From: a virus
Strand: one strand, 5' to 3'
Virus record (IMG/VR): IMGVR_UViG_3300017605_000281
Location: 1 to 34,206 of that record
DNA: 34,206 nucleotides
Of this stretch, positions 2,560 through 33,925 are shown one piece after another. The notes below the pieces were generated by a model, which had not been told where the DNA came from, searched no databases, and saw only the letters and a program-made list of their open reading frames with translations. The position numbers and the translations under genes were made by a program. Numbering within the stretch: position 1 is the stretch's first letter; each line of letters begins with the position of its first letter.

Positions 2560-2803
2560 AGTGTTCGTGATGCGTGCAGGGCAGGGAGACCAGCGTCACG
2601 CGCTGAGCACGAATATTCAGCACCTCGTCTTCCGTGAACAGCATGCAGGAGTAGTGCAGGAGCACATCCGCGGGCACTAGGTGTGGACGGAAGCGAATCA
2701 TGGAGCCCACCTCGCGGTACGCAATGCGCCGTGGCCCCTGAATGTTCAGTGCATCAACTAGTGCTATAGATTCATCGACATCCTTACCAACTAGCCATAG
2801 CAT
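2528..2803 (-). CDS. Hypothetical protein (91 aa)
   Basis: The protein begins MLWLVGKDVDESIALVDALN and ends with a Cys/His-rich stretch (CTHHEHCEHPADAH) that could bind a metal. No family was recognised. Its start lies inside the 3' end of the uracil-DNA glycosylase gene (20-bp overlap). Its stop lies within the start of the polymerase N-terminal gene, consistent with coupled translation in one operon. Its position between DNA repair and polymerase genes suggests a role in DNA metabolism, but that is inference. Confidence 0.65.
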   Translation of the reverse strand: MLWLVGKDVDESIALVDALNIQGPRRIAYREVGSMIRFRPHLVPADVLLHYSCMLFTEDEVLNIRAQRVTLVSLPCTHHEHCEHPADAHVS

Positions 2804-3413
2804 CGCCTAACCCTGCCCAATCTCTTTCTAGACGTGGTTGCAGTGCGGGATGTTCAATCCCATATTTCGGGTGAATCATGGGCATCACAAGCATGTTGAG
2901 CTTGTGGCTGCCAGTGTATTTCAGCGGGTAACCACTGACACGAACGATAGAGAAGTGCTTGCCAGTGATGGCGTAGAGCGCCATACCGCCAATCGGAACG
3001 ATGATCCGGGGGCAGCCAACCATCCGCCACTCTGTCTTGAGCATGCGGCGGAAAGCCCTAATTTCCGGATCGGTCGGGGTACGGTTACCGGGTGGACGGA
3101 ACTTAACCACGTTGGTAAGCCAGGCATTAACCGTTAGCTCGGGGTGAGCGTCCCACCATGCCCCGGTACCTCGCTTGGTGCAGAGCCCAGCAAGGAGCAT
3201 GAGATCACGCAGAACTACCCCCGACTTGCCCACGAATGGCCTACCCTGCAACGCTTCCGCGGCGCCTGGTGCCTCACCGATTAGCATGACGCGAGGGTTA
3301 ACGGGGTCACCCTCACCCATCACTAGCCGCGAGTGCAACGATGGAAAGGAGTTGCGGCGCATGAAGCGCAGTGCCTCGCGCCACGCATACCACTTATCCT
3401 CACTGGCTGCCAT
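2784..3413 (-). CDS. Uracil-DNA glycosylase superfamily protein (family 4/5-like)
   Basis: The 209-residue protein shows the ordered family 4-type UDG motifs. MLIGEAPGAAEALQGRPFVG is the active-site loop. NVVKFRPPGNRTPTDPEI and a hydrophobic strand IIVPIGGMA follow, then MIHPKY as the distal HP motif. Family members remove uracil from DNA; relatives occur as N-terminal domains of phage polymerases. The Cys residues that hold the 4Fe-4S cluster in family 4 are largely missing: the N-terminal region reads NSFPSLHSRLVMGEG with no Cys. It may therefore be a cluster-free variant. It lies directly upstream of the polymerase genes. Superfamily assignment is confident; activity is not. Confidence 0.85.
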   Translation of the reverse strand: MAASEDKWYAWREALRFMRRNSFPSLHSRLVMGEGDPVNPRVMLIGEAPGAAEALQGRPFVGKSGVVLRDLMLLAGLCTKRGTGAWWDAHPELTVNAWLTNVVKFRPPGNRTPTDPEIRAFRRMLKTEWRMVGCPRIIVPIGGMALYAITGKHFSIVRVSGYPLKYTGSHKLNMLVMPMIHPKYGIEHPALQPRLERDWAGLGDAMASW

Positions 3414-10856: not shown

Positions 10857-11612
10857 TCACCCGATCCCTATTTTCATGAGTGCATCGGCACGGAAGCTTC
10901 GGAAGCCTGAGCCGCTGTGGTCGGCAAACGTAATGACACGTTCTCCGGGGGTCTCATCACCGCTCCCGTTGAACACGTGACGGATCTCCACCTTGCTGCC
11001 TACGATCGCGGTCTCCGTATTGCGCGCGATGCGATTCCACCATGTAACCTGCATGCCTGTGATGTGCCGTGCAAGCTCCCGATCGGAAGTCTCGTCAGGC
11101 TCAAAGTCAAGCTCATGCGGGGGCATGCCGTTATTGCGGGGTTTGGTGGTGTCCCACAGGGTGTAGCTCTGATCGATAAGCGCTCCACCCTGCCACGTCA
11201 GGACTAGAAGCTCAGCCCCGCGGGTGCATGTGAGGGTGGCGTGACTCATCCCGCGCTCGTCAATCCAGCCCTTGCCCGCTGTTGCCCAACCTAGGGGCTC
11301 TAGCAAATCGCGTGCGGGCATAGCAGCCAGCACCGAATCATTCTGCCGTGGCGCCTTCGGACGGGTCGGAGAATCGACTACAGCGGGCGGAGTGGGGTCC
11401 GGAGCGTCAAGCGCCGCCTTGATTTCCGCCGTGCGATCCGGCAGGCGCTTCGCGGATGACGCCTTAGCAAGCTGACGTGCACTGGGCTTCCGCATATCCT
11501 CAGCAGGAGATTTGGTGCATTGGTTATCCAGAGTGCAGCGTACCGGAGGCCGACCCCGCCGCGGAGTTACCGTGAATGTCCCGCCGTGGTCACGGCACCT
11601 AATAGTTTTCAC
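10857..11612 (-). CDS. Putative DNA-binding protein with Cys/His finger and AT-hook-like motif
   Basis: I start it at GTG 11612 because a strong site (GGAGGGAAGGGGAAG) precedes it; an ATG far upstream at 11738 lacks one. The 251-residue product begins with IRCRDHG and later has RCTLDNQC, a possible zinc finger framing TPRRGRPPVR, which resembles an AT hook. A linker rich in Lys/Ala/Pro follows, then a C-terminal domain (LLEPLGWATAGKGWIDERG to the end) of mixed alpha/beta character. It heads the helicase-containing gene string. A role in DNA binding is inferred from the N-terminus only. Confidence 0.7.
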   Translation of the reverse strand: MKTIRCRDHGGTFTVTPRRGRPPVRCTLDNQCTKSPAEDMRKPSARQLAKASSAKRLPDRTAEIKAALDAPDPTPPAVVDSPTRPKAPRQNDSVLAAMPARDLLEPLGWATAGKGWIDERGMSHATLTCTRGAELLVLTWQGGALIDQSYTLWDTTKPRNNGMPPHELDFEPDETSDRELARHITGMQVTWWNRIARNTETAIVGSKVEIRHVFNGSGDETPGERVITFADHSGSGFRSFRADALMKIGIG

Positions 11613-12256: not shown

Positions 12257-12266
12257 CCTAGCGCGT

Positions 12267-12338
12267 GCCCCTAGTGCGATTTGAACGCACACTATCGCGG
12301 ACCTAAACCGCGTGCCTCTGCCGTTGGGCTATAGGGGC
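12267..12338 (-). tRNA. tRNA-Leu, anticodon UAG (short variable loop)
   Basis: All four arms fold. Acceptor is GCCCCTA/TAGGGGC, the D-arm closes with GCC/GGC, the anticodon stem is CGCGG/CCGCG with loop TTTAGGT, and the T-arm is GTGCG-TTCAAAT-CGCAC. The discriminator is A and no CCA is encoded. Anticodon UAG reads CUA (leucine), and G37 fits a tRNA with G36. The variable loop is only 5 nt (ATAGT), whereas bacterial tRNA-Leu normally has a long variable arm. CTA codons recur in this phage's genes and are rare in Streptomyces, so codon supply is a likely role. Confidence 0.85.
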
Positions 12339-26727: not shown

Positions 26728-28080
26728 TTAGGCCAGCTTGATGAACGGGGAAAGCTTGTTGCTGGAACCATTCTGCGGGGTGATCGCGGAGTCAAGCCAC
26801 GGGCGCCCGTCAAGGCGCTCGATAACCCGGAACGCGGTCACATCGCTGTTGAACTTGAAATCTTCGGACTGACGCGCGCTCATCGCCTGTCGGTCACCAA
26901 TGAGGTAGAAACCGAAGTCGACAAAGTTGATGTCACCCGAGCTACCGACAGCGCGCGCCTTCTCAGACACGATGACCGGGCGCCCGAGGATGCTCAGCGG
27001 AGACTCAAGCGTGCCCGAGGGGAAACCCGCACCACCAAGCAGCATCGGGGTAGTGGTGCCACCAACCACGAATGGCATCGTGAGAAGGTTCGGGATCGCA
27101 TCCGGAGAAACAATCCAGATAGCCCGGTTAAGCGACTGGGGCAGCATCTGTGCGTACATGTTGGCGATGTCCGCCCAGTCGATATTCTGACCGGCGCCCG
27201 TACGGGTGATGGCGATAGCGGCATCCGCGTTCAGGAAGCCTAGCGGCTCACCAACGCCAGCACCGACAAAGAATGCCACATCCTCAAACCAGGCCAGCGC
27301 CTCAGGGAAAATGCTAGACAGGAAGGCATCCATGCTCGGCTGAGCGTCCCGAATAAGCTCATTCGGTACCTCGGTGTAGAGCACAAGCTTGTTAGCCCGT
27401 AGCTCGACACGGCCGAATTTCGGCTGGCTCTCCGTGAGGGTAGCGCCCTCCTCAGTCCAGTAGCCAGTCACACCACCGTAGACGCTGCTCACGTTGGAAG
27501 TGCTGTCCACCTTGGGGAACGGCACCGTAAGCGAATCCATCGGGATAACCCGCGCACGAGACCGCACGATAGCGGTCTCCAGGGATACAGACAGAAGCTC
27601 CGCCCGTAGCACCTCGGGAATCAGAAAGCCACCGTCGCTCGGCTTGACCGAAGAAAGGTCGTTGCGAAGCTCACCGAGCTTGCCAGACAGCGTGCTGTCC
27701 TTGTGACTGTGCTCAGAGATGGCGTGCATGAATCCCGCGAAGGTCTCAAACTTCGCATCATGCCGGGCGCCCAGCGCGGACTTGTTGTAAATGGTGCCCC
27801 GGACCGGGCGGCGCGAGTTGGGGTCACCAAGGTTCAACTTGCGGAACGTCTCGGCATCCGCGGTAGGGTGCTCACGCAGGTAGTTAATCATGAATGCCTG
27901 CGCCTGCTCGTCTACCTGCGCCTTGATACCAGGGTCGCTCTTGAGTCGGGCGTTTACCGTCGCGGTAGTGAATTCCGCGAATAGGTCCGGATCCGCCATG
28001 AGCTGCTTGACCTTGGCACGATCGGTGAGCATTTCGCGTAGCTCAACGTCGTTGGTGGGAATCGTGAGTGTAGCGCCCAC
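26728..28080 (-). CDS. Major capsid protein (HK97 fold)
   Basis: The 450-residue protein has an N-terminal helical delta/scaffold region (about 1-140) followed by the HK97 core. GGFLIPEVLRAELLSVSLET, LTVPFPKVDSTSNVSSVYGG, LVLYTEVPNELIRDAQPSMD and an adjacent ALAWFEDVAFFVGAGVGEPL are typical. The protease encoded upstream would remove the delta region during maturation. GTG at 28080 after GGAAGG. Assignment is firm. Confidence 0.94.
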   Translation of the reverse strand: MGATLTIPTNDVELREMLTDRAKVKQLMADPDLFAEFTTATVNARLKSDPGIKAQVDEQAQAFMINYLREHPTADAETFRKLNLGDPNSRRPVRGTIYNKSALGARHDAKFETFAGFMHAISEHSHKDSTLSGKLGELRNDLSSVKPSDGGFLIPEVLRAELLSVSLETAIVRSRARVIPMDSLTVPFPKVDSTSNVSSVYGGVTGYWTEEGATLTESQPKFGRVELRANKLVLYTEVPNELIRDAQPSMDAFLSSIFPEALAWFEDVAFFVGAGVGEPLGFLNADAAIAITRTGAGQNIDWADIANMYAQMLPQSLNRAIWIVSPDAIPNLLTMPFVVGGTTTPMLLGGAGFPSGTLESPLSILGRPVIVSEKARAVGSSGDINFVDFGFYLIGDRQAMSARQSEDFKFNSDVTAFRVIERLDGRPWLDSAITPQNGSSNKLSPFIKLA

Positions 28081-28086
28081 GGTCTA

Positions 28087-29028
28087 TTACCTTCCTGCTA
28101 GCAGTGACTTAGCCACAGCGACCATGTGGTCAACGTGAGATTGCGGTACGTGCGTATTGATTACCGGCGCCGGAGCACGATCGCGCCCAGCGTGCTTGTA
28201 GCCCCGGTTAGTCAGGGCGTGCTTGCGATGCATGAGCGCAGCGAGAGCCTGTGCAGGCTCATCCTCGTCAGGCTCATTCGGCCCCGGAGGCATCATCGGA
28301 TTTTCATCCTGATCAGGCTCCGGCGGAGCGTCCGCATCGTCCGGGGTATCGGTAGGTGCGGGCTTGCTGGAATAGACACTGTCCGCTAAGCCAAGGTCTA
28401 CGGCTTCCTGCGCGAATAGCCACGTCTCAGCCAGCATGCGGCTGCGCCACTCGTCAATCTCGCCACCCGCCTTAGCGGCGTAAATAGAGGCGATGTTGTC
28501 CGACTGCTTACCAAGGAAATCCGACATCTCGCGGAAGTCCTTGGCATTGCCCACGCCGTTGCCCAGCGCGTCATGGATCATCATCTGTGCGCCCACCATC
28601 ATCACGCACTCATCGCCACCCATCGCCACGATAGAAGCGGCGGAGGCGGCTAGCGCATCAACGTAGGTGGTCACGTTGGCAGGGCTACGCACCAGCGAAT
28701 TGTAAATAGCGATAGCGTCGAATACGCTACCGCCCGGCGAGTTGATATGGACGTTAATTTGCTCCACGTCCATCTCATTGATTGCCATCACCAATTCGTT
28801 GGCATCAACTCCGAATGAGCCTCCAATCTCATCGTAGATGAAGATGTCTGCTCCGTTGATGGTCGGGGAAGTGCCATCAACCTCGGGGTCTTCACCATCG
28901 GCATTACGGATGGTGAACCAAGGAAGCTTGGTGCTGGCAAACGCATCCGCTAGCTTGGGGTCGACGTTACGTAGGCGCTTGAGAATCTTCGCCTTAACGC
29001 CCGTGACTGCGCGATTGGTGGGATCCAT
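28087..29028 (-). CDS. Head maturation protease, ClpP-like (S14)
   Basis: The 313-residue protein has a ClpP fold in residues about 55-240. DIFIYDEIGGSFGV, INVHINSPGGSVFDAIAIYN, the nucleophile Ser129 in LAASAASIVAMGG and His152 in MMIHDALG are in the right order. It cuts the capsid scaffold region during head maturation. The C-terminal 90 residues are acidic/Pro-rich (DADAPPEPDQDENPMMPPG) and may act as an internal scaffold. ATG 29028. Confidence 0.93.
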   Translation of the reverse strand: MDPTNRAVTGVKAKILKRLRNVDPKLADAFASTKLPWFTIRNADGEDPEVDGTSPTINGADIFIYDEIGGSFGVDANELVMAINEMDVEQINVHINSPGGSVFDAIAIYNSLVRSPANVTTYVDALAASAASIVAMGGDECVMMVGAQMMIHDALGNGVGNAKDFREMSDFLGKQSDNIASIYAAKAGGEIDEWRSRMLAETWLFAQEAVDLGLADSVYSSKPAPTDTPDDADAPPEPDQDENPMMPPGPNEPDEDEPAQALAALMHRKHALTNRGYKHAGRDRAPAPVINTHVPQSHVDHMVAVAKSLLAGR

Positions 29029-29040
29029 GAATCTCCTTTC

Positions 29041-30357
29041 TTAACGGCGTGCTGCTAGCGCAGCGCTGGGCGGGGTATCGGTGGTGGGCGGGGCTTCCTC
29101 CGGGGCAAGAGCCAGCTCAGGGCTGGGCGCCGGAATGCCTACCCAGCGCATCGCAGGAAGCCCTACGGCTTCCGTGCTATCGTCCGGGTGGTAACCAGCC
29201 ATTACCAGATTGCGCAACGCGAGAGACTGTGCGGTGATGGTCTGGTTTTGCTGGTCCTGATTCGGGGGAATCGGGTTATCATAATCCAATTCCAGAGTCT
29301 TACCATTGGCAAACTGCGGAAGTAGGAAGGTGTTGATAGTTGCCTTCCATCGCTGCAACCGCGGTAGCGTCTGGCCTTCCGCCATGATCTCACGGCCGGC
29401 TTCCGCGTTGGCGCGGTTAACATCATCCACGGTGCCAAGCATCGGCTTCGGGAAGGCGAAAGCCTCGCGGATCAACTCGCGTGGCAGATTGCGCAGCGCC
29501 TCAAACTGCATGTCTTCCATACTGTATGGGGTAGGGATGTAATCCGCGTTCTCTAGTACCGCCACACGGTGAGCGTTGCTCACGCCCTGGTGCTGCTCAC
29601 GCCAGCGTGAGATAAATTCTTGAAACTCCCTATCCCCCATTTTGTAATCGACTTTGAGCACCCCTCCAGGCTGCGCACCGTTCAGGAAGAAATTGCGATT
29701 CCAGAGAGCGGCAGCACGCGACGAGTCAATGTCAGTAAGCACAGTCTGTACGGGTCCGCGCCCGCGGTACGGATCATCGGGGTTAGGGTACTTAAGTTGA
29801 ATTACCTGATCGGTCGTTAGCGGTACTTCCTCGCCATCGGGACCAATGTAAATCCAGCCAGTTAGGAATTTCGTCGGATGCTTCACGGGGTGCATGCGCT
29901 CCGGCCGGACTACCCACATTTCAACGGGTACGCCTGCAAACTTGTAGAGCACGATGAAGGTTTCCCCGGTCAATTCCATGTACTGCTGTGCGGCCTCGCG
30001 GAATAGCACACCCGGGTAGAAGTTATTAGGCATTTCCCATAGAATCGAGAAGGGGTGCCCGATGACTTCCTTGCGGCGCGACTTATCGCGCACGGAGGTA
30101 CGCTGGTATAGGTGCCAATCAACGGTACTGAACGCCCATGTAATTTGCGCTACGATGGCAAAGAGGGTACCGACTGCGCCGTGAGCCTCATAGGCTCGTA
30201 GCGCATCCGCACCCGGGGCGTTGCCGTTTGACCACAGCGAGAGGCCGCTAGTGTTGCGGCTGCTTGTGAAGGGGACCGGGGTCTCATTCCGGAGGATCAT
30301 GGCGCGCGCTCTGCCCGCCGCTGTTGCCGCTACTGACAGCAAATCACGCATTGTCAC
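29041..30357 (-). CDS. Portal protein (HK97-type)
   Basis: The 438-residue protein has portal landmarks: AVGTLFAIVAQITWAFSTVD, LTGETFIVLYKFAGVPVEMW, and a QVIQLKYPNPDDPYRGRGPV block. Further on are RNFFLNGAQPGGVLKVD, then PRELIREAFAFPKPMLGTVD. It forms the ring through which DNA enters the head. The last 40 residues are Pro/Ala-rich. The GTG at 30357 and ATG at 30351 are both possible; the start overlaps the membrane gene by 14 bp. Confidence 0.94.
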   Translation of the reverse strand: MTMRDLLSVAATAAGRARAMILRNETPVPFTSSRNTSGLSLWSNGNAPGADALRAYEAHGAVGTLFAIVAQITWAFSTVDWHLYQRTSVRDKSRRKEVIGHPFSILWEMPNNFYPGVLFREAAQQYMELTGETFIVLYKFAGVPVEMWVVRPERMHPVKHPTKFLTGWIYIGPDGEEVPLTTDQVIQLKYPNPDDPYRGRGPVQTVLTDIDSSRAAALWNRNFFLNGAQPGGVLKVDYKMGDREFQEFISRWREQHQGVSNAHRVAVLENADYIPTPYSMEDMQFEALRNLPRELIREAFAFPKPMLGTVDDVNRANAEAGREIMAEGQTLPRLQRWKATINTFLLPQFANGKTLELDYDNPIPPNQDQQNQTITAQSLALRNLVMAGYHPDDSTEAVGLPAMRWVGIPAPSPELALAPEEAPPTTDTPPSAALAARR

Positions 30358-30640: not shown

Positions 30641-32086
30641 TCACATCTCGACCATTGTCACTCGGGCCTTACCTTTGAAATCCTTATACATCGTCATGTA
30701 CCGATCGGTGTCCATACCGTCATCATCGCGCTTCACAGGCTCATCCTGAATGCGCCCATCCGCGGAGACCTTCCACACGTACGATGCGTATTCTTCCACC
30801 GTGCTGCATGGCAGTAATTTGTCTGCCTGCGACTGGTCACGCTCAACGAGCGCGTCAGCCATGTATAGAATTAGGGGACCGTTAGCATCACCCTTAAGCC
30901 TCTGCTTCTGTAGGTCAATGCCGGTAGATACCGCCTTCATAGCTGGCTGAGTGCCTAGCCCTGTAGCCTTCTCAAAGGTCCGCCGGTCTTCCGCATCGTG
31001 GTCACAAATAATCGCGGTAGGCTTAGGTTCTGTCCACTCGCGTGTCACTACCGTGCGCTCAACGCGGTTGATGTGATCCCAAAAGGTCTTACTTATTTCA
31101 CGACTTACACAATCCATGATCGTTGCGGCATGCTCCTGCACTGTGCGCCCGGTCATATAGATTTCGCGGTACATGTAGAGCGCGCCGTCTTCGGGATCCT
31201 CCGCGTAGCACTTGAGCACGAACGGGTGGCTAAAGCCGAAGTCCATAGCCCAATAGCGCTCCCATTCCTCGGGCAATGGAAGGGCGTTACCTTCCTCGTC
31301 AAACTGCCATTGCACCACGTGTTTAACGGGGTCGAATTCCTCATAGATGATGCCTTCCGCGGAGACCCACAGACCCAGCCTCAGACGCTTATAGCGCACC
31401 CCCGTGAGGTTATCCAGGATGTTGATATAGCTAGCACCCTTGGTAGTTACCTTATAGGTGCCATCCTCAAGCAAATCGAATAGGCGAGGGTTGTCCTCAT
31501 GCCGTGATTCGATGAGCCTGCATTTGCCATCATTACAACGGAGCTTGAGCCAGTGATGCTCCCCCGCGGGGTTGCAGTCCATTAGCAACTGCTGGAAAGT
31601 CACAGTCCAGTTACGCAACCGAGTCTTAACAAACTCTAGATCCTCAAGCGTGATCTCTGTTGCTTCCTGGATATACACGATGTCGTACTCAGACGACATG
31701 ACGCGCGTGGGGTTATCTAGCCCGCCGATCGTTACCGTGCTGCCATTCCTGAATCGATACTGTGGGGCTTCCTGGCTGCTACCGCCGTAGTAGACCACCG
31801 TGCCCGTAGCCAGCGCCTCACGCACCACGAAATTGCGCCAAGTCACAAGCGCGGTAGAGCCAAGAGAGCGCAGGGTCTTACGCAGGATGAGCACACGCAG
31901 GTTAGGCGTGAGAAGGCACATGGTGTATAGCTTCTCAAGACACGCACGAGACTTGCCCGTACCAGCCGGGCCAGATATCAGTACCTCATCCTCACGCGCA
32001 TCAAAGATTTCCTTGCAACCACCGCGAGGCGCGTAGACGTGCTTAAGCACCTTTCCGGTATTGCGTCGACGGGTAGCGGCAACCAC
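30641..32086 (-). CDS. Terminase large subunit
   Basis: The 481-residue protein has an ATPase domain with Walker A SGPAGTGKS (residues 38-46) and Walker B DIVYIQEATE (135-144). Its RNase H-like nuclease has Asp282 in AMDFGFSHPF and Asp362 in ICDHDAED. It cuts and pumps DNA into the procapsid through the portal. GTG at 32086 after AGGAAGG. Relation to PBSX-type terminases is likely from the motif context. Confidence 0.95.
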   Translation of the reverse strand: MVAATRRRNTGKVLKHVYAPRGGCKEIFDAREDEVLISGPAGTGKSRACLEKLYTMCLLTPNLRVLILRKTLRSLGSTALVTWRNFVVREALATGTVVYYGGSSQEAPQYRFRNGSTVTIGGLDNPTRVMSSEYDIVYIQEATEITLEDLEFVKTRLRNWTVTFQQLLMDCNPAGEHHWLKLRCNDGKCRLIESRHEDNPRLFDLLEDGTYKVTTKGASYINILDNLTGVRYKRLRLGLWVSAEGIIYEEFDPVKHVVQWQFDEEGNALPLPEEWERYWAMDFGFSHPFVLKCYAEDPEDGALYMYREIYMTGRTVQEHAATIMDCVSREISKTFWDHINRVERTVVTREWTEPKPTAIICDHDAEDRRTFEKATGLGTQPAMKAVSTGIDLQKQRLKGDANGPLILYMADALVERDQSQADKLLPCSTVEEYASYVWKVSADGRIQDEPVKRDDDGMDTDRYMTMYKDFKGKARVTMVEM

Positions 32087-32108: not shown

Positions 32109-32576
32109 CTACCGCAGGTTGTCCATATCAATTCCCTGAATGTCCACAGAGAGCACGTCTCCCTCTCCAGTGTCCCCAGCGCCACGGTGGAGCAACTGCC
32201 CTAGCTCATTAGCCGCGAGCATGAGATAGGAGCGGAATTCCCGAAGCACAGTCGCATACTCCGCCGATGGCATGTCGGTGGTGCCGAACGTCAGCCGGTC
32301 GTACGCGCCCTCTGCCACGTCCTGATAGCGCTTGAGGCGCTGGTACTTATTGGTGATCCATAGGTCTGCGAGTTGACCGGGCGTGGGCTCCGCGGAGTCG
32401 GCTTCGCGCTTGGCTGCCTCAGCAGCGCTCAGGATCTCATCACGGTGCTCAGCGGTAAAGGCTCTCAACTCCTCCACAGAGCCCCCGTACCGCTCAGCCA
32501 GTACCCGGGCAGGAGCCGCCCGTGTAGCGATGTCCTGAACCAACTGAGCCTGGTCTACTGCGGTAAGCGTGCGCAA
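32109..32576 (-). CDS. Terminase small subunit
   Basis: I start it at TTG 32576, giving MRTLTAVDQAQLVQDIATRA (155 residues), because GGAGAGG lies seven bases ahead; an in-frame ATG near 32627 sits inside the operator. The N-terminus looks like a helix-turn-helix (PARVLAERYGGSVEELRAFT) and the C-terminus is an acidic helical region. It recognises the packaging site and regulates the large subunit encoded next. Small-subunit identity rests on position, size and HTH pattern. Confidence 0.8.
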   Translation of the reverse strand: MRTLTAVDQAQLVQDIATRAAPARVLAERYGGSVEELRAFTAEHRDEILSAAEAAKREADSAEPTPGQLADLWITNKYQRLKRYQDVAEGAYDRLTFGTTDMPSAEYATVLREFRSYLMLAANELGQLLHRGAGDTGEGDVLSVDIQGIDMDNLR

Positions 32577-32602: not shown

Positions 32603-32631
32603 ATGATAGCACGAGATTGATCACTCTCATG
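32603..32631 (-). promoter_or_regulatory. Predicted promoter of the terminase/head operon
   Basis: TATCAT (32608-32603) fits a TAnnnT -10. A 17-nt spacing places the poor -35 hexamer at 32631-32626, overlapping the CebR-type palindrome. A start near 32597 would leave a 20-nt leader with the ribosome-binding site GGAGAGG. A terminator directly upstream supports a new transcription unit here. Confidence 0.5.
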
Positions 32632-32644
32632 GGAGCGCTCCCAT
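32629..32644. promoter_or_regulatory. CebR/CelR-type operator, ATGGGAGCGCTCCCAT
   Basis: The 16-bp perfect palindrome contains TGGGAGCGCTCCCA at 32630-32643. That 14-mer is the published binding site of CebR in Streptomyces and CelR in Thermobifida, LacI-family repressors released by cellobiose or cellotriose. It overlaps the -35 of the predicted terminase promoter, as a repressor site would. Other LacI-family proteins bind related sequences. Confidence 0.7.
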
Positions 32645-32652
32645 CTGCACCC

Positions 32653-32676
32653 ATAAAGAAAGCCCCCGAAGGGGCT
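32653..32676 (-). terminator. Rho-independent terminator after the DUF2637-like gene
   Basis: AGCCCC-TTCG-GGGGCT followed by TTCTTTAT on the minus strand is a classic GC stem, stable tetraloop and U-rich tract. It ends the upstream unit just before the terminase operator and promoter. Confidence 0.85.
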
Positions 32677-32691
32677 CCCTTATTAGTTAGC

Positions 32692-33219
32692 CTAGGCAAG
32701 CAAGCTAGCCTCCAGGGTGGCTACCTCAGCCTTCCGACGACGGGTAGCGGCAGCCTTCTTAGCAGGGGCGCTAGCGGCTTTGTGAGCGCGCGTCGCGCGA
32801 CCCTTAGCAATAGCGGCAGCCTTCTTAGTAGCGGCCTCAGTAGCGGCAAGCTCGGCAGCCTCAGCAGCAGCGCTCTTAATCTGGTCGGACAGCCACTCAC
32901 TGAATACAAACAGCGCCACCGTAGCCACACCGAAGACTGCGGTACCCGCGTTGTGGGCCGCGTAGACATTGCCAGCGAGGCTCAGCAGGCCAGCCACAAT
33001 CTGCACCCGGAAGCCGATGGCGCGAGTGCGAGAGGCGAAGTCCGCGGAGCGCATGATCAGACCAATGCAGGCGATGCCGTCAATCATGAAAGGGACCGTC
33101 CACGCCTCCCACGTGAGCCCGCCCTTGTGGCCTGCATGCACGAGGTGGCTAAAGCTGAGGGTCAGAGCAGCGATGAAGTAGAGGCGGGTGATGACGCTTA
33201 CCAGGGCTACCTTGCGCAT
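32692..33219 (-). CDS. Four-helix membrane protein, DUF2637-like, with basic Ala/Lys tail
   Basis: The 175-residue protein starts at ATG 33219 after AAAGGGAG. Helices lie at about 7-30, 40-60 (WTVPFMIDGIACIGLIM), 70-88 (QIVAGLLSLAGNVYAA) and 93-108. The FSH, MIDG and GNVYAA signatures resemble DUF2637 (SpdB-type) proteins of Streptomyces plasmids. Residues about 115-175 are a cytoplasmic-type tail rich in Ala, Lys and Arg (KKAAAIAKGRATRAHKAASA), similar to histone H1 tails. It may tether DNA or a complex at the membrane; this is inference. It has its own terminator. Confidence 0.65.
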   Translation of the reverse strand: MRKVALVSVITRLYFIAALTLSFSHLVHAGHKGGLTWEAWTVPFMIDGIACIGLIMRSADFASRTRAIGFRVQIVAGLLSLAGNVYAAHNAGTAVFGVATVALFVFSEWLSDQIKSAAAEAAELAATEAATKKAAAIAKGRATRAHKAASAPAKKAAATRRRKAEVATLEASLLA

Positions 33220-33312: not shown

Positions 33313-33540
33313 TCAGTTGGTGCCAACGTTCTCCAGCGCCCAGCGGGTACCGCCCCAGTGAGCGTCACGTACCGCGGTCTCCAGCATCACGGGGAAGCAG
33401 TACTGAACGGTGCCATCCTTGGTGATCACGTCTACGCCCTGCTCCTTGCTGGGCTGAACCGCGAGAATGGTCGACCAGACCAGCACCGCGGCGTTGTCGA
33501 TTACTACGCCTACCTGAACCTGCATGCCGATGTAGTTCAT
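33313..33540 (-). CDS. Small hypothetical protein (75 aa)
   Basis: ATG at 33540 follows AAGGAGAAAACAA, an excellent site. The product begins MNYIGMQVQVGVVIDNAAVL, is beta-rich and has a single Cys, ending THWG-like aromatics (DAHWGGTRWALENVGTN). It is a single-gene unit between the right control region and its own terminator, implying strong independent expression. No family recognised. Confidence 0.7.
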   Translation of the reverse strand: MNYIGMQVQVGVVIDNAAVLVWSTILAVQPSKEQGVDVITKDGTVQYCFPVMLETAVRDAHWGGTRWALENVGTN

Positions 33541-33684: not shown

Positions 33685-33886
33685 CGGACATTAGGGTGTA
33701 TTCCTGGCGCTGCTCAACGCTCAGTAACTAAAATCGTGATCTCTAAAATGTGATCTGTGTCACTCGGGGCAAATGTCCGATAAATTCAACCGAAAGTATG
33801 AGTAGTATTTAATACCAAAACGGACACGGTTACGAGATCGTTATAAATAATGGACATTCTGCCCTTGATCAAGAACAAAACGGACA
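33685..33886. repeat. CGGACA repeat cluster (iteron-like)
   Basis: CGGACA occurs at 33685, 33821 and 33881, TGGACA at 33851, and the inverse TGTCCG at 33774. The three at 33821, 33851 and 33881 are exactly 30 bp apart, and the outer two share an AAAA flank. This periodicity of about three helical turns suggests cooperative protein binding. Confidence 0.6.
33749..33764. promoter_or_regulatory. Second Crp-like site TGTGA-N6-TCACT
   Basis: TGTGATCTGTGTCACT has one mismatch to the symmetric site and shares the wider pattern AAATGTGA-y-CT-nn-GTCAC with the site at 14413. It again contains GTG-N6-G-N-CAC. No clear promoter lies at class II spacing on either strand. Confidence 0.45.
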
Positions 33887-33911
33887 TGACGCAGAGTTAT
33901 TAATAGGTGGT

Positions 33912-33925
33912 TGGAAGCGCTCCCA
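33912..33925. promoter_or_regulatory. Imperfect CebR/CelR-type box TGGAAGCGCTCCCA
   Basis: It differs from the perfect 14-mer at 32630 by a single base (G to A at position 4). It lies in the right control region about 370 bp upstream of the 75-aa gene. Paired boxes could allow looping by a tetrameric LacI-family protein. Confidence 0.55.

Follow-up and report, generated by a model that had tools for sequence, protein, structure and literature searches.

The regulon closest to the locus described here is that of CebR/CelR, LacI-family regulators of Streptomyces and other actinobacteria. CebR is a repressor reported to respond best to cellobiose and only partially to cellotriose (PMC5332605). 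The 14-bp operator of this regulon is identical to a word in the phage, and the position of the phage box relative to the start codon falls within the reported range (PMC5332605). The host regulon, however, comprises cellulase and uptake genes, whereas the phage box precedes a structural operon, and the phage carries no CebR gene.

Phages that respond to regulators of their hosts have been described. In the virulent Bacillus phage phi29, host Spo0A sites at promoters hold back lytic development, as summarized in PMC9437464. The phage analyzed here resembles phi29 in having host-regulator sites at its promoters; it differs in the regulator family, in the signal (sporulation in phi29) and in the placement of the site at the terminase operon. 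Host regulator sites are also found in the CtrA-controlled phages of the Alphaproteobacteria, whose behavior was given the name "lytic deferment" (PMC9437464). These share with our phages the convergent occurrence of host-regulator sites in phage promoters and the proposal that lysis is deferred to host state, but their regulator is a cell cycle response regulator whose binding has been shown, whereas ours would be sugar-binding repressors reporting on carbon source, as predicted from sequence. In phage GIL01, host LexA governs phage promoters (PMC4551915); unlike the present case, that phage is temperate and the signal is the SOS response. Control of lytic phages by host factors is already known from phi29 and the CtrA phages, and a sugar-repressor version would be new. 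A literature search for a CebR, cellobiose or sugar-responsive LacI-family site in a phage, with scarce coverage of subscription papers and preprints, returned nothing relevant. Two marks of host-regulator control are found here: sites lie at predicted promoters above chance and are conserved, and no phage-encoded regulator was detected in 21 records, some of them fragments.

The box ahead of the terminase operon

We analyzed a stretch of 34,206 nucleotides of viral DNA (IMG/VR record IMGVR_UViG_3300017605_000281), referred to below as the window. On the minus strand, a DUF2637-like gene is followed by a terminator, the operator, a -10 element, a terS-like gene, terL and the portal, protease and major head protein genes. 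The features are as follows.

33912 to 33925, unstranded: second LacI-type site, TGGAAGCGCTCCCA, one mismatch to TGGGAGCGCTCCCA, upstream of the left-end genes
33313 to 33540, minus strand: 75-aa open reading frame upstream of the DUF2637-like gene
32692 to 33219, minus strand: membrane-protein gene, DUF2637 relative, whose own terminator precedes the operator
32650 to 32680, minus strand: predicted intrinsic terminator of the upstream gene (by folding; hairpin at 32661 to 32676, then TTCTTT)
32630 to 32643, unstranded: LacI-type operator TGGGAGCGCTCCCA, an exact match to the CebR/CelR consensus, kept in six further phage contigs
32625 to 32630, minus strand: weak -35 candidate ATGAGA (consensus scan)
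32603 to 32608, minus strand: -10 element TATCAT with TG extension
32109 to 32576, minus strand: terS-like gene, 155 aa, TTG start at 32576 after GGAGAGGGGGAG
30641 to 32086, minus strand: terL, large terminase subunit (PHROG 2, E value 7e-37)
29041 to 30357, minus strand: portal protein gene, downstream in the same gene string
28087 to 29028, minus strand: head maturation protease gene
26728 to 28080, minus strand: major head protein gene

The 14-mer at 32630 to 32643 matches the published CebR/CelR consensus exactly (PMC5332605) and is enclosed by a 16-mer palindrome, ATGGGAGCGCTCCCAT, spanning 32629 to 32644. The sequence-only reading had proposed a perfect CebR/CelR operator upstream of terS with a terminator just before it, and each of these elements was located where it had been placed. 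The base composition of the window predicts ~0.0003 exact copies of TGGGAGCGCTCCCA and ~0.011 copies with one mismatch, versus one of each present. The one-mismatch copy, TGGAAGCGCTCCCA, lies 1.3 kb from the operator and had been overlooked in that reading; it is the same word as the CebR box of S. scabies bglC (Table 1 in PMC5332605). The noncoding region near this second site (33700 to 33900) contains repeated TGTCCGTTTTG and CGGACA motifs, and similar motifs are found upstream in L170 and L018.

The operator lies ~53 nt ahead of the terS TTG start and 21 nt ahead of the -10 element. Most relatives have an equivalent -10 hexamer 6 to 8 nt ahead of the start codon. Together, ATGAGA and TATCAT match the consensus at 9 of 12 positions in the consensus scan, and the promoter score by itself was no better than that of shuffles (mean, 0.8). 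The further suggestion that the operator overlaps the -35 held in part: the TATCAT element is present and the operator touches ATGAGA, but the contact is only 1 to 2 bases and the -35 is not covered. On the other side, the end of the terminator hairpin (AGCCCC-TTCG-GGGGCT, 32661 to 32676) lies 17 nt from the operator by hand count.

The terS gene had no library match and is named from its position and from the 43 relatives, in which it is consistently paired with an adjacent terL. Among isolated phages, TerL is closest to that of Thermobifida phage P1312 (50%) and Streptomyces phage Dagobah (44%), and Thermobifida fusca and Streptomyces are the hosts of the closest isolated relatives. Pfam PF10935 was not matched in the window's own DUF2637-like protein; it fell just below the cutoff in the homologues from L002 and L150. 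Elsewhere the phage carries a tRNA-Leu gene (12265 to 12338), and its replication end holds a uracil-DNA glycosylase superfamily gene (2784 to 3413) and a YspA/SLOG-family gene (599 to 973).

Operators in related phages and in actinomycetes

Relatives of TerL were drawn from IMG/VR, and the 14-mer was searched for separately in the same collection, where it occurs in 41 stretches; this is the overall tally, and the enrichment described here refers to the terS family. The exact box was found upstream of terS in four of nine terL relatives. Two further box contigs from the 14-mer search, L012 and L017, were then recognized as terS/terL relatives, and a terS alignment then gave 43 loci. The relatives are metagenomic contigs, some of them fragmentary. 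Conservation upstream of the terminase, the check put forward in the sequence-only reading, was run and revealed the exact 14-mer in the terS slot of six IMG/VR phage contigs besides the window (L002/L136, L007, L008/L170, L010/L173, L012/L172 and L017/L141); the check thus did not refute the reading. The box is identical at 14/14 positions, yet the 30-nt downstream flanks agree at 4 to 16 of 30 positions (L008, a near-copy of L007, was omitted from the comparison). A perfect 14-bp palindrome centered on RCGY, which is the signature of the LacI family, was present in 10 of 29 upstream regions; shuffles gave 0.04, with a maximum of 1 in 300. A chance origin of the box was rejected on the basis of the expected copies, the shuffles and the flank comparison.

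The slot is also used by other operators. In nine other terS relatives it holds TTGAAACGTTTCAA, a different LacI-type operator, or a one-mismatch form of it, always one per record. The exact word is present in L137, L139, L146 and L151, and also in L150, where an inserted convergent gene parts it from terS; one-mismatch forms are found in L059, L147, L161 and near-copies. L137 and L150 have a third type, built on a AAGCGCTT core, ahead of the DUF2637-like gene; the window and L008 have variants of it. Neither of the two main classes was found in the slot in 20 of 36 terS rows, indicating that such an operator is not essential and is optional in the family. On the terS tree, the closest kin of the window carry the other operator class, L002 excepted, and the CebR class requires three changes, two of which are forced by well supported branches; the class thus arose or was swapped more than once. 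No box within one mismatch was found in the nearest isolated phages (P1312, Dagobah and Woodruffvirus members). P1312 alone among the isolated phages checked has a two-mismatch match, far from its terminase, and a terL search of bacterial genomes gave no prophage relatives.

The distance from operator to -10 falls at 10 to 12 nt, at 20 to 23 nt and, in one clade (L007/L008/L010/L012), at 65 to 77 nt. The last of these gaps implies that simple occlusion of the -35 is not the whole mechanism. The gaps tend to place the operators on the same helical face (P ~ 0.002 at 10.5 bp per turn and 0.0003 at 11.0, but the test fails at 10.0, with P = 0.17). The -10 elements in this test were picked by eye and its rows share ancestry; helical phasing of the operators is thus suggestive only. 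The distance from hairpin to operator is 15 to 19 nt by hand count in every terminator-linked case, L019 and L046 included, and stays constant despite differing spacer sequence and a swapped operator class. Given this fixed spacing, a roadblock to read-through may be as important as obstruction of the -35.

On the host side, 67 of 297 actinomycete genomes contain TGGGAGCGCTCCCA, with up to 24 copies each, and the reversed control was near zero. Among the bacterial matches listed for the 14-mer, 72 of 80 belong to the Actinomycetota, as judged by eye from their titles. Actinomycete chromosomes use this 14-mer as a regulon site, in multiple copies. Few of the genomes contain TTGAAACGTTTCAA (4 of 297). 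In one of the four it belongs to a long repeat; in the other three it lies before the L-rhamnose mutarotase gene (rhaM), with a sugar major facilitator superfamily (MFS) gene next to it; beside a similar MFS gene, recognized by eye from its translation; and before an alpha-L-rhamnosidase gene. From these three places we infer that TTGAAACGTTTCAA is probably a rhamnose-regulator site. Seven copies of TTGAAACGTTTCAA in one Actinomadura genome were discarded as a candidate regulon, and the five inspected lie inside long palindromic repeats; in Actinomadura G040 (L414 to L418) the word centers a dispersed palindromic repeat of ~60 bp. A further word, GGAAAGCGCTTTCC, was found in seven genomes; two of them have it next to LacI-family genes, and some others have it near genes that appear by eye to encode carbohydrate-active enzymes.

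Proposed working and rival readings

No LacI DNA-binding domain (PF00356) was detected in 21 phage records, the window included, which are partly fragments, and a phage-encoded LacI repressor was discarded as a candidate. The protein that binds the site is therefore most likely a host repressor. We estimate at roughly two in three the probability that the box serves as operator to a plant-sugar repressor of the LacI family encoded by the host (CebR/CelR), held in a dedicated slot that runs from the upstream gene's terminator to the terminase/head promoter and gating the terminase/head operon. As an operator the site is well supported; its role as a switch is putative.

In the proposed working, the host repressor would be bound when cello-oligosaccharides are scarce, lowering initiation at the terS promoter and blocking read-through from upstream, such that the assembly genes would stay low. 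Repression of the terminase/head operon, with relief by cellobiose, is the working that we consider most likely. The contributions could come from a block of initiation, from looping to the second site or from a stop to read-through. As the phage replicates, its operators would multiply and titrate the scarce repressor, and late genes could open even without sugar, which would provide a timer without a phage regulator. Such titration by replicating genomes would explain why a phage tolerates the operator in sugar-poor cells. The slot of sister phages bears what is probably a rhamnose operator, and the signal would therefore not be cellulose only.

The repressor could act chiefly as a roadblock 15 to 19 nt past the hairpin, stalling polymerase on the U-tract and so assisting termination; it would shield the structural operon from read-through, with control of the terS promoter secondary. 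Consistent with this, the distance is held across differing spacers and swapped operator classes, and L019, L046 and L150 keep terminator and box without an adjacent terS promoter (in L019 the box lies between convergent terminators). On the other hand, the operators of L139, L146, L151, L059 and L147 adjoin the terS promoter with no preceding terminator, the constant spacing may in most cases be inherited from a common ancestor, and L150 is accounted for by the gene inserted between operator and terS. The odds are against this reading, although it is a real possibility. A stimulating role, in which a LacI-type factor bound close to -41, or in phase further upstream, activates the promoter, would fit the operator centers near -40, -84 and -95 in many cases, which share one DNA face given the assigned -10 elements. 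We consider it quite improbable, as published work describes CebR as a repressor (PMC5332605) and the gaps of 10 to 12 nt place the operator over the -35.

The box could also be a decoy: by titrating CebR as the phage replicates, it would switch on cellulase and sugar-uptake genes of the host to feed the infection, with any effect on terS incidental. In its favor, each genome has one or two sites whose number replication would raise, and the CebR regulon of the host is large. A decoy would need neither a fixed slot nor helical phasing nor, across several lineages, a location at the terS promoter, and most records have a single site; this explanation is improbable. The location just upstream of terS and near the contig end could also point to a packaging or DNA-processing site (cos/pac or terminase recognition) that is palindromic by accident, and in Dagobah, a related phage, a terminal repeat stops ~95 bp short of terS. 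A cos or pac site would be conserved in sequence with its terminase, whereas here the element is swapped or absent among relatives with the same terS: sister phages have an unrelated palindrome and others with the same terminase have none. The window has another copy at a distance of 1.3 kb, and both TGGGAGCGCTCCCA and TTGAAACGTTTCAA are host sugar-gene sites. This makes a packaging role very unlikely.

Returning to the host-repressor operator, a wider version of it would hold that lytic actinophages share an exchangeable terminase-operon slot for cellulose-, rhamnose- and AAGCGCTT-type repressor operators, with assembly gated by carbon source and timed by titration through a terminator-operator roadblock switch. 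We offer this version tentatively and regard it as unlikely in its full form. If the host-repressor reading holds, lytic phages of soil and compost would sense the diet of the host without a sensor of their own, and phage production would be tied to plant-biomass breakdown through a regulated switch at the packaging operon. The system would also permit a clean test of whether repressor titration driven by replication times late genes, and host regulon motifs could be used toward host prediction for metagenomic phages.

Boxes in other phage lineages

The exact CebR box was also seen in an unrelated, Streptomyces-phage-like lineage of MuF type, where it precedes a small gene (L049, 646 to 659; L029, 3877 to 3890). 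The kinship of L049 was assigned by BLAST, and L029 is tied to it through a common MuF-like gene. In both contigs exactly 42 nt separate the box from a downstream TTGAC -35 element, with spacer agreement at only 16 of 42 bases; L049 has a second box at 1224. In L046, also Streptomyces-phage-like, a box follows a terminator (3311 to 3324, plus strand), and two copies of GGAAAGCGCTTTCC flank a small HTH-like gene. In L030 the 14-mer is central in a perfect palindrome of 36 bp, AGTACTATGAATGGGAGCGCTCCCATTCATAGTACT, at 11004 to 11039.
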